Shown here piece by piece: positions 24,720-36,698 of a stretch of 52,738 nucleotides of DNA; position 1 is the stretch's first letter; every line of letters starts with the position of its first letter. This stretch comes from Opitutales bacterium (GTDB lineage Bacteria; Verrucomicrobiota; Verrucomicrobiia; Opitutales; Oceanipulchritudinaceae). The translations under genes were made by a program, and so were the position numbers. Where the stretch lies: NCBI GenBank assembly GCA_020831485.1, contig JAFIGG010000018.1, positions 1-52,738 on the forward strand. The letters are read 5' to 3'. The notes under the pieces are model-generated. The model was not told the DNA's origin, searched no databases, and saw only the letters and a list, made by a program, of their open reading frames with translations.

Positions 24720-25592
24720 TCAGGAATAGATCTTCAGCAAAGTATCTGCGATGTCGCTGGGTGTTGGCGCGACGGCAATACCGGCAGCTTCCAGAGCGGC
24801 GATCTTCGACGATGCGGCACCGCTGCTGCCACTGACGATGGCACCGGCGTGGCCCATGCGGCGCCCGGGAGGCGCTGTGGTGCCGGCAATGAAGGCGGCG
24901 ACCGGCTTTTTCACGTTGTTTTTAATGTACTCCGCAGCTTCTTCTTCTGCGGTACCGCCGATTTCACCGATCATGATGATGGCTTCGGTTTCAGGGTCTT
25001 CGTTGAACATGCGAACCGCATCGGTGTGGCTGGTACCGTTGATGGGGTCTCCACCGATACCGATGCAGGTGCTCTGGCCGTGGCCGCGAACGGTCAGCTG
25101 GTAAACAGCTTCATAGGTCAGGGTGCCGGAACGGCTGACCACGCCCACTTTGCCGGGTTTTGCAATGTAGCTCGGCATGATACCGATATTGCACTCACCG
25201 GGGGTCATGATGCCGGGGCAGTTGGGTCCGATCAGGCGGGTGTTGGACTTTTTCAATGCGTCCTTAACCACTGCCATATCGCGCACCGGAATGCCCTCGG
25301 TGATGCAAATAATAAGCTCAATGCCGGCATCGATCGCCTCGAGGATGCCATCAGCCGCAAACGGAGGCGGGACGAAGATAACGCTCGTGTTGGCGCCTTC
25401 GTTTTTGACGGCATCGTGAACCGAGTTGAAAATCGGAAGTTTGTCCTCGAATTGCTGCCCACCCTTGCCAGGTGTGACGGCGGCAACGTAATTGGTGCCG
25501 TATTCGATGTTCTTGAGTGCGTGCAGGCGACCGAAGTTACCGGTGATGCCCTGGCCGACCACACGAGTGTTTTTTCCTACGAGAATAGACAT
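24720..25592 (-). CDS. sucD: Succinyl-CoA ligase (ADP/GDP-forming) alpha subunit
   Basis: The 290-residue protein starts [18 protein letters not shown] (CoA-binding Rossmann domain) and has [20 protein letters not shown] and the phosphohistidine region [13 protein letters not shown]. It cycles between succinyl-CoA and succinate with substrate-level phosphorylation. It follows sucC by 34 bases. Besides the TCA cycle, it can supply succinyl-CoA to the MutAB/Mmd pathway encoded in the same window. Full length and intact. Confidence 0.96.
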
Positions 25593-25626
25593 GTCTCTAA
25601 ATATTTAATGGTTTGCTGTGCAGCGC

Positions 25627-26820
25627 TCAGGCTTTGTTGGCGACCTCTTCGACGACTTTCTTGGCCGCGTCACTGAGGTCATCGGCCGGGGTGATTGGCA
25701 GATTGCTGTTTTTTAGAATCTCTTTGCCTTCTTCCACTTCATTGCCTTCTAGGCGGACGACCAGCGGGACGTTGATGTCCACATTCTTAGCCGCTCCGAC
25801 GATGCCGTTGGCGATGACTTTGCAGCTCATAATGCCACCAAAGATGTTCACCAGAATGCCTTCGACATTCGGATCGCTGAGGATGATTTTGAAAGCCTCG
25901 GTAACCGCCGCTTCACTGGCACCACCGCCTACATCGAGGAAGTTGGCAGGGGATCCGCCAAAGTGCTTGATGATGTCCATTGTGGCCATCGCCAGGCCTG
26001 CGCCGTTGACCAGGCAGGCAATATTGCCATCGAGAGCGATGTAGCTCAGGCCGTGCTTGCCGGCTTCGATTTCCTTCGGGTCCTCTTCGTCGAGGTCGCG
26101 GAGGGCGAGAATATCCGGGTTACGGAACAGGGCATTCGAATCAAAGCCAACCTTCGCGTCCAGAGCTATGAGCGCGCCTTCATCGGTCGTGATCAGTGGA
26201 TTGATTTCGACCATGCTGGCATCCTTTTCCCAGTAGAATCGGTAGAGCCCGTCCAGCAGCTTGCTCAGTTGCTTAAAGGATTCCTTGTCACTGAGGCCGA
26301 GGCCAAAGCCGATGGTGCGCTTGTGAAAGGGCATGATGCCGGTCGCTGGATCGATGAAAATCTTGATGATCTTCTCGGGCGTTTCTTCGGCCACGGTTTC
26401 GATGTCCACGCCGCCTTCAGTAGAGGCGATAATAACTGCCTTGCTGGTTGCTCGATCGAGGGTGATGGCGAGGTAATACTCTTTTTTGATCGAGCAAGCT
26501 TCATTGAAATAGACGGTCTTCACCTCGCGGCCCTCGGGGCCGGTCTGGTGGGTAACAAGCGTGTTGCCAAGCATGCGAGTGGCGGCTTCTTTGGCCTCCT
26601 CTTTGGTTTTGCAGACTTTGACGCCACCTTTGTAGCCGTCCTTGAAAGTCCCTTTACCGCGACCTCCTGCGTGAATTTGTGATTTGACGACTATCAGCTC
26701 CGATTGAATGGAGGCGATCGCGTCGTCGAATGCGTCAGTAGATCGTGCGGCCACGCCCTTTACTGTTGGGATGCCGTAGTCCGCAAAGAGTTGTTTTGCT
26801 TGGAATTCGTGAATGTTCAT
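25627..26820 (-). CDS. sucC: Succinyl-CoA ligase beta subunit
   Basis: The 397-residue protein starts MNIHEFQAKQLFADYGIP, the usual beginning of SucC, has the ATP-grasp region with QIHAGGRGKGTFK and ends with the CoA-ligase domain containing VNIFGGIMSCKVIANGIV. It binds the nucleotide and receives phosphate from the His of SucD. It is first in the sucC-sucD pair. The 135-base region between rph and sucC holds a GC-rich inverted repeat but no clear promoter. Confidence 0.96.
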   Translation of the reverse strand: MNIHEFQAKQLFADYGIPTVKGVAARSTDAFDDAIASIQSELIVVKSQIHAGGRGKGTFKDGYKGGVKVCKTKEEAKEAATRMLGNTLVTHQTGPEGREVKTVYFNEACSIKKEYYLAITLDRATSKAVIIASTEGGVDIETVAEETPEKIIKIFIDPATGIMPFHKRTIGFGLGLSDKESFKQLSKLLDGLYRFYWEKDASMVEINPLITTDEGALIALDAKVGFDSNALFRNPDILALRDLDEEDPKEIEAGKHGLSYIALDGNIACLVNGAGLAMATMDIIKHFGGSPANFLDVGGGASEAAVTEAFKIILSDPNVEGILVNIFGGIMSCKVIANGIVGAAKNVDINVPLVVRLEGNEVEEGKEILKNSNLPITPADDLSDAAKKVVEEVANKA

Positions 26821-27745: not shown

Positions 27746-28204
27746 TCAGCTCAGCCGGTGACTGTTTGTCCACAGGTGCCAGTCTCCAGTTGCCACGTAT
27801 TGTCCGTCTTCTGTCTGGATCCGTTCCCTCTGCATCCAGTAAGCGGGGATTTTGCCGAGTAATCGCCGGTCCAGGTCGAAGGTAGGCGAGTCCTTTCTTA
27901 AATACTCATTCGATTCTGATGCCCGATCCGGGTCGTAACCTTCGAGATTGTCGATGTCCTGCATCAGGGCCGGATCGTTGAAAGCCAGAACATCTCCACG
28001 CACCCAGTCGCTGCCATCGCACAGCGCCGGGTAGCCCAGCTTCAGATGAAAGAGCTTGCCGCGAACGAGTGCAGGCAGGCTCAGTGGCACACGACCCTCG
28101 CAGATTCTGCGATAGTAATAGCCTCCGGGTCGCAGTGTGCCGTAGACAAATACCTGGAAGCGGAAAGCCTTAAGCTCTTCAGCTTTGCTGCTTGACGAGG
28201 GCAT
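27746..28204 (-). CDS. Gamma-glutamylcyclotransferase-like (GGCT/AIG2 fold) protein
   Basis: The 152-residue protein shows the GGCT-fold signature VFVYGTLRPGGYYY, a central VRGDVLAF strand, and LEGYDPD, which supplies the family's acidic catalytic residue. Family members cleave gamma-glutamyl amines or act on other gamma-glutamyl compounds; the substrate here cannot be told. Its first 26 bases overlap the 3' end of the E1-E2 fusion gene in a different frame, suggesting coupled translation. The role next to a 2-oxoacid dehydrogenase is unknown. Confidence 0.8.
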   Translation of the reverse strand: MPSSSSKAEELKAFRFQVFVYGTLRPGGYYYRRICEGRVPLSLPALVRGKLFHLKLGYPALCDGSDWVRGDVLAFNDPALMQDIDNLEGYDPDRASESNEYLRKDSPTFDLDRRLLGKIPAYWMQRERIQTEDGQYVATGDWHLWTNSHRLS

Positions 28205-31200
28205 TCAATGAGAACTGCTCGATTTCCCTGCGCACTTCAGCCATGAACTGGGCTCCGGCTACTCCATTGGCCCAGCGATGGTCAAAACTCAGGCATAGGC
28301 TGACTTTTTCGCAGGGTTTTTCGCCTGAAGTCGCATCGAGGTGGGCTTCTCCCATGAACAAGGTTGCGATCGCCGGCGGCACGACCACCGGCAATGCATC
28401 CCGCACGCCGTATGCGCCCATACTGGTGAGGATGACCGGGGTGCCCGATTTGGATCGGACCCTGCCCGCGCGCACATCGGCAATGGCGAGTTGGCAACGT
28501 TGCGAGAATTCGTCCCAGCCAAGTTCATTGGCGCCTTCGACCACTGCCGTTTCCAGAGCGTCGTTGGGTAGGGCTACTGCGATGCCCAGATTGAACCGTT
28601 CATGCCGCAGGAGGGTGTTGTCTTTGGTGACCGTGCAGGTGAAAACGGGGCAGCGTTCCATCGCGCGGGTGATTGCCCAGGCGACCATGACTGTAGGAGA
28701 AGGTGGAGAATCCGGGACTAGTTCTTTGGCTTCGCTGCGGGCTTTGCGGATGCTGTCCCAGCCCGCTTTTACCGTCATGTGAGCGGGCACGACATCCTTC
28801 AGCTGGGCAATGATATGGGGCGATAGGCCGCCCTCGGTCGGTTTGTGCGCCTGCACTTTGCTCTCTGTTCTGGCCGGGATGGGCGCGCTTTCCTGCGCAA
28901 CCGGGGCTTGGCTTCTGGTGGGTGTCTTTACTCCCGAGCTCGTGGCCAGATAGGCGATGACCTGGTGGACTTCCACTTCGTCGCCTTCTGCGATTAACCA
29001 TTCAACCAGGGTTCCGGCTTCAGATGCCTCGATGGGGAATAGGGCTTTGTCGGTTTCGACTTCGCAAAGTGCGTCATCCGGCTCGATGTCTTCACCCGTT
29101 TCGGCGATCAGCGAGATCACCTTTGCGCTGGTGATGCCCTCGCCCAGAATGGGCACGCGTATTTCGGTGCGATCGGCTTCGTTCGTTTCCGCCCCGGTTT
29201 CGGCAAATGTCTCTTTCATCATTTCGAGAGTTTTATTTTCACTGTCGGCTGGTTCTGCTTCAGCGCTCGCAATGGAGCGTTTTTGCTTACTCGCCAATAG
29301 CTCACGCAGCTTCTGCAAAACGGTGTTTTTGTCCGGCAGGGCGGCGTATTCAAGAACCGGATTGTAGCCGATGTTTACGTCAGGCTTCGCCAGCAGGGTC
29401 GGCGGTGCGAGCAAGCGGCTGAAGAGTTTTCCGGAAGAAATATGGCTGAGGATCTTCTGGCCGATACTGCAGCTTTCTCCATCCTCCTGAACCACCAGAA
29501 TCCGTCCCGTTTTTTGCACCGAATCGGCGATAGTCGCGAGGTCAAGCGGGGCAACGGTGCGGACATCAATCAATTCGACCGCGTGCGCGTCGTCCAGCAG
29601 CTTGAGGGCTTCCTCTGCCACTTCGATGCAGTTGCCCCACGCGACCAGCGTCAGGTCTTCACCCTCACGGCAGATGCGCGCTTTGCCAAAGGGAATCGGC
29701 TGCGGCCTTGCTGTGACTTCGCGCGGGTGCCACATGAGGTGTTTGGGAATCAGGAAAATGGATGGGCTGTTTGCGTGCATTGCCGTCCAGAAAAGGCCGG
29801 CGGCGTCTTCCGGGTTGCTGGGGATGGCAACCTGCAGGCCGGGAAAGTGTGCCAGGGCGCTCTCATTACTTTGGCTGTGCCAAAGAGCGCCACCCGGCAG
29901 GTAGGCGCCGCAGGGAGCGTAAAGGACTGCTGGTGCAGACCATTCGCCGTTGCTGCGCCAGTGCAGGGTTGATAAATGGGTGACTAGTTGGTTGAAGCCC
30001 GGCCAGATGTAGTCGGCGAACTGTATTTCAAAGACCGGTCGCTTGCCATAAGCAGCGAGACCAACCGCGACGCCAACAATTGTGGATTCCGCCAGAGGGG
30101 AGTTGAATACATTGTCGGGGTGGGCGTCGGAGAGCCCTTTGGTCAAACTGAAAACGCCACCTTTCGGGTCTTCAATGTCCTGCCCGAAGAATACGAAGTC
30201 CTTCTTCTGCCGAAGGCCCGAGTGGAAAGTTTCATTGATGGCATCCACCATGCGGCGCTTGTCTTTCCATTCCAGACCGATGCGGGGTGGATTTGCGGGT
30301 TCGCCATAGACATGCTTGAGGAGGTCTGAGGGGTCGGGATCGAGTTCGCTGAAAGCGCGCTCATAGTCGGCCCGTACCTCTGCTTCGACTTCCGCGTAGA
30401 GTTCCTGGTAAGCTTTCTCAGTCAATGCCTTGGCGGCTATCAACTGTTTTTTAAGGCGTTGGATTGGGTCTTTTTGTTCGAGGCCCGCGATTTCATCCTC
30501 AGCGCGGTACTTGCGTTGATCGTCGGCACTTGAGTGGCTGGATATACGCTCAGTGCGGCACCAGATAAACTGCGGTCCGGATCCTTTGCGCAGGGCCTCC
30601 ATAGCGGCACCAACCTCGAGCTGGACTTCGTCTACATCGCAGCCATCAATGCTGCGCCAGTTTTCCGGGTTGAGCACTTTCAGGGCCAGCGGATTCATCT
30701 GCTGCGTCGCGGTCGAAATGCCGATGCCGTTGTCTTCAACCAGGAAAAGGACCGGCAGCTTGCGTTCCACGGCAAAGCTCACCGCTTCGAAAAAATCTCC
30801 CTGACGGGTACCGGCGTCGCCAATGGTGGTCACCACCAGGTTTGGTTTTTGATCCAGCTTCAAGCCCCAGGCGAGCCCGCAGGCCGGCAGCAGCGAGGCT
30901 CCGACCACTGAAGCGATGCTGAAAATACCCTTTTCGCGACTGCTGTAGTGTGCCGGCATCTGGCGGCCTCCGCTGGCGCCAGAACGTTTAGCGAAGAAGG
31001 ACAAGGCCATTTCATAGGTGTCGACTCCGCGGCCCAGAGCAATTGGTCGGTCACGGTAGTAGCCTGCGAAGAAATCGCCGTCTTTGAGCAGGCGGCCAAC
31101 TACGGTGAGGGCTTCGTGGCCCATGCCGGATACATGGAACCAGCCCTTTCCCTGACGAATCAGGCTCTGTTCCCTGAGGTCACCAAGACGACTGTTCAGC

Positions 31201-31247
31201 ATCAGTCGAAGTAAATCGAGTTTCTCTTTAGGGCGGGTGGGTTTCAT
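28179..31247 (-). CDS. Four-part fusion: 2-oxoacid dehydrogenase E1-alpha, E1-beta, lipoyl domain and E2 catalytic domain
   Basis: One uninterrupted 1022-residue frame. E1-alpha (about 10-325) has the thiamine-diphosphate region starting GDAGTRQGDF (143-152) and ending EDN (171-173). E1-beta (about 330-650) has PLAESTIVGVAVGLA and HSQSNE. A lipoyl domain (about 694-770) has the lipoylation motif ETDKA with Lys734. After an Ala/Pro linker, a short E2 acyltransferase domain (about 805-1022) ends in FDHRWANG. The usual peripheral-subunit-binding domain for E3 is not visible. In the E2 active-site motif HxxxDG, His990 is kept but Asp is replaced by Asn994. The complex would oxidatively decarboxylate a 2-oxoacid, probably branched-chain-like, to an acyl-CoA. 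No E3 gene is in the window. Confidence 0.88.
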   Translation of the reverse strand: MKPTRPKEKLDLLRLMLNSRLGDLREQSLIRQGKGWFHVSGMGHEALTVVGRLLKDGDFFAGYYRDRPIALGRGVDTYEMALSFFAKRSGASGGRQMPAHYSSREKGIFSIASVVGASLLPACGLAWGLKLDQKPNLVVTTIGDAGTRQGDFFEAVSFAVERKLPVLFLVEDNGIGISTATQQMNPLALKVLNPENWRSIDGCDVDEVQLEVGAAMEALRKGSGPQFIWCRTERISSHSSADDQRKYRAEDEIAGLEQKDPIQRLKKQLIAAKALTEKAYQELYAEVEAEVRADYERAFSELDPDPSDLLKHVYGEPANPPRIGLEWKDKRRMVDAINETFHSGLRQKKDFVFFGQDIEDPKGGVFSLTKGLSDAHPDNVFNSPLAESTIVGVAVGLAAYGKRPVFEIQFADYIWPGFNQLVTHLSTLHWRSNGEWSAPAVLYAPCGAYLPGGALWHSQSNESALAHFPGLQVAIPSNPEDAAGLFWTAMHANSPSIFLIPKHLMWHPREVTARPQPIPFGKARICREGEDLTLVAWGNCIEVAEEALKLLDDAHAVELIDVRTVAPLDLATIADSVQKTGRILVVQEDGESCSIGQKILSHISSGKLFSRLLAPPTLLAKPDVNIGYNPVLEYAALPDKNTVLQKLRELLASKQKRSIASAEAEPADSENKTLEMMKETFAETGAETNEADRTEIRVPILGEGITSAKVISLIAETGEDIEPDDALCEVETDKALFPIEASEAGTLVEWLIAEGDEVEVHQVIAYLATSSGVKTPTRSQAPVAQESAPIPARTESKVQAHKPTEGGLSPHIIAQLKDVVPAHMTVKAGWDSIRKARSEAKELVPDSPPSPTVMVAWAITRAMERCPVFTCTVTKDNTLLRHERFNLGIAVALPNDALETAVVEGANELGWDEFSQRCQLAIADVRAGRVRSKSGTPVILTSMGAYGVRDALPVVVPPAIATLFMGEAHLDATSGEKPCEKVSLCLSFDHRWANGVAGAQFMAEVRREIEQFSLNALVKQQS

Positions 31248-36005: not shown

Positions 36006-36698
36006 TCAGCGTTTTCGGTTCCATGCTGGGCTTTGGAACTGCTGGCTGCAGGCTGCGGTGGGTTGCGGCAGGGTTGGGATGGATTTAAGGTGGGCTTGCA
36101 GGGTTTGGGTGAGTTCGGCTTCGAGCGTTTGCGCGAAGCGCGGAGAGTCGACTATCGCCCTAGCGAGGATGCTACCCTGAACCAGAAGTCCGGACCGGTT
36201 GCGTTTTAGCGCCGCGCCGGCCAGTTTTTGTCCGGTTTGCAGGTCGAGAACATCGCTGACTGCCGGCCGCTGAAAGCATGCATCCGCGGAGTCTGTGGAT
36301 GCTGCCGGCCTGGTCTCACCGCAATTGAACAAGCGCACGGAATGTCCTTCCCCAGCAATTGCCCCGGCAATTGCACGGTGGAGGGAGGAGTAGACATCGC
36401 ACACCTTTTCACGCCACCACGGGTGTCTATTTGGGACCACCAGACAATAGGTAAAGTCCGCCTGGTGGTCGACAATTCCCCCGCCCGTCGGTCGCCGCAC
36501 GCATTCGGCAATTACCTCAGGCCGGTCGGCTTCAATTTGCTGCCAGCGCTGGGTGTAGCCAAAGGTCCAGCTGGGCCGTTTCCAGCCATAGTGGCGAAAG
36601 CGAATGCAGTCCGCAGGCCCGGCCTCCAGCAGACTAAGGTCGAGGGCCATATTGGTGGCTGCATCACTGATCTGGTAGGGATAGCTGAGGAAGTCCAT
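36006..36698 (-). CDS. Octanoyltransferase/lipoate-protein ligase family protein (LipM-like)
   Basis: The 230-residue protein belongs to the biotin/lipoate ligase fold. RRPTGGGIVDHQADFTYCLV (about 68-87) is the family's nucleotide/acyl-binding loop, and GQKLAGAALKR carries the conserved Lys (about 158). DACFQRP places a Cys at about residue 141, where LipM octanoyltransferases have their catalytic Cys (ACF followed by Pro). It would attach octanoyl or lipoyl groups to lipoyl domains such as that of the E1-E2 fusion encoded at 28179-31247. LplA-type ligation is the alternative. It converges on the histidine kinase gene with six bases between the stop codons. Confidence 0.8.
   Translation of the reverse strand: MDFLSYPYQISDAATNMALDLSLLEAGPADCIRFRHYGWKRPSWTFGYTQRWQQIEADRPEVIAECVRRPTGGGIVDHQADFTYCLVVPNRHPWWREKVCDVYSSLHRAIAGAIAGEGHSVRLFNCGETRPAASTDSADACFQRPAVSDVLDLQTGQKLAGAALKRNRSGLLVQGSILARAIVDSPRFAQTLEAELTQTLQAHLKSIPTLPQPTAACSQQFQSPAWNRKR

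Follow-up and report, generated by a model that had tools for sequence, protein, structure and literature searches.

In 2-oxoacid dehydrogenases, E1 components of the alpha/beta type act as dimers of alpha-beta pairs, and E2 acyltransferases act as trimers. Parts of this machinery share one chain in the actinobacterial E1-E2 fusion OdhA/KGD and in the QncN/QncL system, the latter being the nearest published architecture that we found, compared here from its text description and not from sequence (PMC6335953). QncL is described as combining E1-beta-like domains with lipoyl and acyltransferase domains in a single protein, with QncN supplying the E1-alpha-like part and QncM serving as the acyl carrier protein (ACP). 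Here, we analyzed a 52,738-nucleotide stretch (the window; contig JAFIGG010000018.1, assembly GCA_020831485.1) of an Opitutales bacterium, in which a single gene joins E1-alpha, E1-beta, lipoyl, and E2 parts. Our search of open-licence papers turned up no description of this architecture; the fusion is a new variant in architecture, carrying an active-site residue already known elsewhere.

On the plus strand, the gene interval is interrupted by many stop codons; on the minus strand, it is open throughout as one frame. A sequence-only reading made beforehand had described one intact frame of 1022 residues, a short E2 without an E3/E1-binding domain, and an HxxxDG motif altered to HRWANG with Asn994 in place of the catalytic Asp; frame reading, translation, and Pfam bear out each of these points (Table 1). 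All five Pfam domains score above the Pfam cut-offs, and the E1 portion shows the features of the alpha/beta type (E1_dh, Transket_pyr, Transketolase_C, the thiamine diphosphate (ThDP) motif, and the catalytic Glu). As in other E2s, a lipoyl domain with its lipoyl lysine precedes an acyltransferase domain, whose HxxxNG is a variant of HxxxDG. The E2 part is correctly called short because it enters the 2-oxoacid_dh profile only at position 23 of 232, and the peripheral subunit-binding domain is lacking, with no E3_binding match in the fusion protein at E ≤ 0.1 (Pfam) and a linker of only 40 residues. The earlier proposal that tethering would make such a binding domain needless thus gains support as an interpretation. 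As a pared-down, single-chain form of a complex that usually reaches several megadaltons, the fusion tests why an E2 core and a binding domain are needed.

The architecture is shared by a conserved family. Among the 384 genomes of a class-wide sample, the full-length fusion query matched 64 (E ≤ 1e-95), the matches being of several kinds. From 65 distinct proteins collected, 15 partial or other-kind sequences were removed, and the remaining 50 (the window protein and 49 relatives of the same architecture) were aligned. The lipoyl Lys734, His990, Asn994, Gly995, Glu387, His238, Gly143, and Asn173 are identical in all 50, position 941 is always Ser or Thr, and HxxxNG is universal, with no HxxxDG homologue among them. 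One aligned protein (L007) ends at a contig edge, yet extends through the motif.

The window genome contains three E2s (PF00198), on contigs C82 and C89 and in the fusion. On C82, a 931-residue frame, an E2, and an E3 are consecutive, which we read from gene order and frame starts as a putative 2-oxoglutarate dehydrogenase operon. Contig C89 carries E1-alpha, E1-beta, and E2 in order, and its E1-alpha passes the NCBIfam cut-off for pyruvate dehydrogenase (PDH; TIGR03182, 411 vs 394 bits); the fusion E1-alpha falls below the PDH cut-offs (TIGR03181/TIGR03182, 200 of 411 and 165 of 394 bits). Two E3s, on C82 and C122, exceed the lipoamide dehydrogenase cut-off. Normal E2s and E3s, which the sequence-only reading had suggested looking for, are thus present elsewhere, and other gene sets seem to cover pyruvate and 2-oxoglutarate; the fusion would therefore be a third enzyme that borrows its E3.

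The nearest E1s that we found outside the phylum lie in Streptomyces clusters. A search of 72,556 plasmid records gave Streptomyces proteins as its top hits (41–45% identity in the matched stretch), and three of the five best were examined. In all three (L148, L149, and L150), an E1-alpha/beta gene is followed by a megaenzyme starting with lipoyl, 2-oxoacid_dh, PP-binding, and ketoacyl synthase domains, and the E2 motifs read HTVLNG, HTVLNG, and HTVFNG, respectively. By eye, the stretch between lipoyl and E2 in these megaenzymes resembles an E3-binding domain, with no Pfam match at the limit used. The S. xanthii cluster includes an ornithine-cyclodeaminase-family gene, aminodeoxychorismate synthase, chorismate mutase, HMG-synthase cassette genes, and a free malonyltransferase, annotated features from which we tentatively read a streptogramin A+B cluster. 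The starter of streptogramin A (pristinamycin II) is reported to be isobutyryl (PMC6963833), and the virginiamycin paper (PMC10006238) gives nothing on the starter. The lipoyl-E2-ACP unit fed by the Streptomyces E1 would accordingly be expected to load isobutyryl.

In a FastTree phylogeny of E1 built on 641 columns (64 sequences: 27 of the 50 window-type, 16 FabH-type, 5 E1-only, 3 Streptomyces, and 13 others), the window type, with the E1-only form nested inside, was separated from the rest at a support of 0.998. It joined the Streptomyces E1s at 1.000 and then the FabH type at 0.981, and PDH, Listeria Bkd, and other E1s fell outside. An E2 tree of 29 sequences set the window-type and Streptomyces E2s apart from nine canonical E2s at 1.000; the placement of the Streptomyces E2s had a support of 0.240, and their identity to window-type E2s was only 25–26%.

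Within the phylum, three arrangements share the E1 module: the window type, an E1-lipoyl-FabH type, and E1 alone. The second joins E1-alpha, E1-beta, lipoyl, and FabH (beta-ketoacyl-ACP synthase III, KASIII) in one chain of about 1100–1270 residues, and Pfam detected E1, lipoyl, ACP_syn_III, and ACP_syn_III_C in eight of eight proteins. Of 20 further stretches from a phylum-wide search, 17 had FabH after E1 by BLAST, two had E1-lipoyl only, and one (L169) could not be resolved by frame picking. The FabH type is widespread in the phylum, apparently replacing the window-type fusion. The E1-only form (about 660 residues) occurs in one family (L092–L096), where no adjoining lipoyl or E2 part was found. 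Each of the 64 matching genomes gave a single match, so none combined the window and FabH types at that threshold (E ≤ 1e-95), many of these matches being classed by length and position rather than by Pfam. When 28 genomes were checked for E2s, 15 with the window-type fusion showed the fused E2; eight were of the FabH type (seven by Pfam, and G255 by a PF08545 match in a long frame) and held one to three canonical E2s each, none fused; and five had neither. Two distant E1-alpha/beta/lipoyl proteins without E2 (L170:2733-5888 on the minus strand and L171:76-2193 on the plus strand) were found in G108 and G359, two genomes in which the window-type fusion is present as well. The FabH fusion, for which we found no report among the open-licence papers searched, suggests direct transfer from the lipoyl domain to the starter enzyme of fatty acid synthesis; if so, it would link the lipoyl arm to that enzyme without an intermediary.

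Table 1. Features of the fusion gene (window coordinates) and locations of the related proteins.
Feature	Coordinates	Strand	Details
Fusion gene	28179..31247	minus	1022 residues + stop codon; E1-alpha, E1-beta, lipoyl, E2 on one chain
E1-alpha part	30330..31208	minus	Pfam E1_dh, residues 14-306, E 1.3e-49; ThDP motif G143-D144...N173; H238
E1-beta pyrimidine-binding part	29736..30254	minus	Pfam Transket_pyr, residues 332-504; conserved E387
E1-beta C-terminal part	29319..29687	minus	Pfam Transketolase_C, residues 521-643
Lipoyl domain	28947..29165	minus	Pfam Biotin_lipoyl, residues 695-767; lipoyl lysine K734 at 29046-29048
Lipoyl-E2 linker	28827..28946	minus	40 residues; 25-69 residues in relatives
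E2 acyltransferase part	28209..28805	minus	Pfam 2-oxoacid_dh, residues 815-1013, E 8.3e-26
HxxxNG motif	28263..28280	minus	H990-R-W-A-N994-G995; reads HRWANG
C-terminal tail, F1012 to stop	28179..28214	minus	Phe in place of the Pro of most canonical E2s; without LL-type C-terminal knob
E1-lipoyl-FabH examples	L033:313-3732; L034:1423-4809; L101-L105, L111, L152-L168	plus (L033, L034)	
Streptomyces megaenzymes	from L148:13936, L149:11928, L150:9881 onwards		beginning lipoyl-E2-ACP

On balance, the fusion is probably a branched-chain 2-oxoacid dehydrogenase on a single chain, supplying the primers of branched-chain fatty acids, with coenzyme A (CoA) or ACP as the acceptor. This reading takes architecture, conservation, co-occurrence, and phylogenetic placement as observed and extends them to substrate, acceptor, assembly, and role, the branched-chain substrate being suggested by the E1 tree, the FabH fusion, and Opitutales lipids. 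The fused E1 would decarboxylate 2-oxoisovalerate, 3-methyl-2-oxovalerate, or 4-methyl-2-oxovalerate on ThDP, and the acyl group would move onto the chain's own lipoyl domain. The E2 (His990 and Asn994) would then transfer it to a pantetheine thiol, most likely that of CoA and possibly that of ACP, and a free E3 supplied in trans would re-oxidize the lipoyl group. The products would prime iso/anteiso fatty acids, which require branched primers. Leading fatty acids reported for Opitutales include anteiso-C15:0, iso-C14:0, or iso-C15:0 (PMC13274419, PMC10288369, PMC5303756), and the window genome has three matches to KASIII (FabH-type) genes. The acyl-CoA dehydrogenase domain PF00441, for which a control was positive in 9 of 14 known genomes, had no match in the window genome (96.8% complete); among the 15 window-type genomes tested, 12 lacked it, and it was present in 7 of the 28 genomes overall. 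Complete breakdown of branched-chain amino acids is therefore unlikely in the window genome, and the missing domain speaks for synthesis over breakdown. If the substrate is as proposed, the fusion would explain the iso/anteiso lipids of a large Opitutales group without a normal Bkd complex.

Several observations weigh against this assignment. The lipid data come from named Opitutales strains and not from the window's organism, and the streptogramin assignment of the plasmid clusters rests on our own reading of annotated features. Three genomes (G050, G062, and G094) hold the fusion together with two or three acyl-CoA dehydrogenase domains, and five members of the window's taxonomic family (G003, G008, G010, G012, and G015) lack the fusion and have only one or two E2s. 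The neighborhood of the gene is not conserved across 16 loci and therefore offers no operon partner that would identify the substrate, and AlphaFold models built from eight and six sequences (mean predicted local distance difference test scores of 50 and 45) were too poor for use. Branched lipids in the five family members without the fusion, if any, would need another source.

A rather unlikely extension of the proposed role is that the acyl group passes from the chain's own lipoyl arm directly into fatty acid synthesis, with ACP as the acceptor of the HxxxNG E2 and never as free acyl-CoA, so that channeling would have been invented twice in the phylum. One form would be the E1-lipoyl-E2(N) chain, related to a streptogramin-type loading unit that adjoins its ACP; the other would be E1-lipoyl-FabH, with a ketosynthase in place of E2.

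Three other assignments are improbable. A branched-chain 2-oxoacid dehydrogenase serving the breakdown of valine, leucine, and isoleucine would use identical chemistry, and the three window-type genomes (of 15) with acyl-CoA dehydrogenase domains would suit it; the distribution of PF00441 given above and the synthesis implied by the FabH-fused sister family leave it a small chance. Similarly low is the probability of another 2-oxoacid substrate, as in a paralogous PDH or an enzyme for an aromatic or other 2-oxoacid. The best NCBIfam names are indeed PDH E1 subunits, far below cut-off (E1-alpha, 200 vs 411 bits), and the best PDB match of E1-beta, 1ik6, is labeled pyruvate dehydrogenase, but the genome already has a clear PDH, and a Thermus 2-oxo acid dehydrogenase and 2-oxoisovalerate dehydrogenases come next among the PDB matches, narrowly above Geobacillus PDH. 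The layout of QncL would fit a QncN/QncL (and NapB/NapD) type of enzyme, which draws two carbons from a ketose phosphate and loads an acyl carrier with a glycolyl group. This is no less doubtful, since the closest E1s found sit in streptogramin-like clusters with a known isobutyryl starter, and the fusion is present as a single copy per genome amid housekeeping genes, unlike secondary metabolism.

It is very unlikely that Asn994 makes the E2 domain catalytically inactive or structural. Asp occupies this position in all 34 canonical-E2 loci examined (30 by pattern; L114, L118, L132, and L173 by reading). Asn, however, is natural in the Azotobacter vinelandii E2p at the position of E. coli Asp607 (PMC8421416); PDB chain 1eaa reads HRVINGAAA, and chain 1dpc has Asp there. 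In OdhA, Gln320 stands at this position, with a catalytic role reported from mutagenesis. Given these precedents and the invariance of the Asn in all 50 proteins, alongside the conserved His, Gly, and Ser/Thr at 941, the E2 domain is very probably active. Asn994 is real but not exotic and, as judged from these comparisons, no mark of lost function; an error or a dead site is rejected, and the suggestion of altered acyl transfer or a non-core role is not supported. The sequence-only reading is therefore supported on the architecture and not on the effect of the Asn, and it contained neither the likely substrate, the streptogramin link, nor the FabH-fused sister. As for a sequencing or assembly artefact joining separate genes, the draft genome is fragmented (142 contigs), and one metagenome-assembled genome (L011/L032) has the fusion gene broken across three frames, but the same single frame in 49 relatives and full-length matches in the single-contig genomes G050, G165, and G273 effectively rule it out.

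The neighboring genes vary among relatives. Downstream of the fusion gene lie sucD and sucC (succinate-CoA ligase; 24720-26820, minus strand), with a GGACT-type gene overlapping the fusion end and rph in between. Neither sucCD, rph, nor most other window neighbors were found beside the relatives' fusion genes; the GGACT gene recurs in 1 of 15 relatives' loci and histidine kinases in 4 of 15, and an all-against-all comparison of the 16 loci left histidine kinases alone common to at least three. A link to succinyl-CoA metabolism through the adjoining sucC/sucD was thus rejected as incidental. About 5 kb from the fusion gene, a short LplA/LipB-type lipoate/octanoate ligase homologue (36006-36698, minus strand) had no NCBIfam match at the limit used.

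The fusion probably forms a hexamer, in which E1 dimers combine with E2 trimers, and not an E2-cored cube, the hexamer being the simplest arrangement because each chain carries one dimeric E1 and one trimeric E2, as in OdhA. At His+22, 27 of 30 canonical E2s have Pro, and 45 of 49 window-family members carry Phe (Leu in three, Tyr in one), a substitution that would speak against a cubic core. Canonical E2s end in a hydrophobic knob, the window family often stops a few residues past His+22, and the fusion tail is without the Pro...LL pattern of most of the 30.

Compared with known systems, the fusion resembles OdhA/KGD in placing E1 and E2 on one chain and in having an amide (Gln in OdhA) for the HxxxDG Asp with the catalytic role kept. 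OdhA is described as a hexamer with an altered E2 tail, whose trimers build no cube (PMC10415282). It differs in that E2 comes first, followed by a homodimeric-type E1o, and in that it has no lipoyl domain and takes its lipoyl-lysine in trans (PMC10415282); the fusion has an alpha/beta-type E1 in first position and a built-in lipoyl domain, and so lies outside the OdhA/KGD group. The tails (Phe340 at His+24 in OdhA, Phe at His+22 in the fusion) are analogous at best, not homologous. QncN/QncL/QncM and SclQ1-4, described as loading glycolyl units in natural products, share with it the multi-domain single chain (QncL); by description, the Qnc system differs in its separate E1-alpha-like part, ketose phosphate substrate, ACP acceptor, and role in secondary metabolism. 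The Streptomyces unit has the nearest E1 outside the phylum and the HxxxNG motif, but is split into two genes, is joined to ACP and a polyketide synthase, and has a divergent E2. Bkd, as in Listeria, would follow the same reaction scheme with an alpha/beta-type E1, but has separate E1-alpha, E1-beta, and E2 genes beside lpd and buk, and its E1 lies outside the window clade. Finally, the A. vinelandii E2p shares the HxxxNG motif and is a canonical, separate E2 subunit of a pyruvate dehydrogenase complex with a cubic core.

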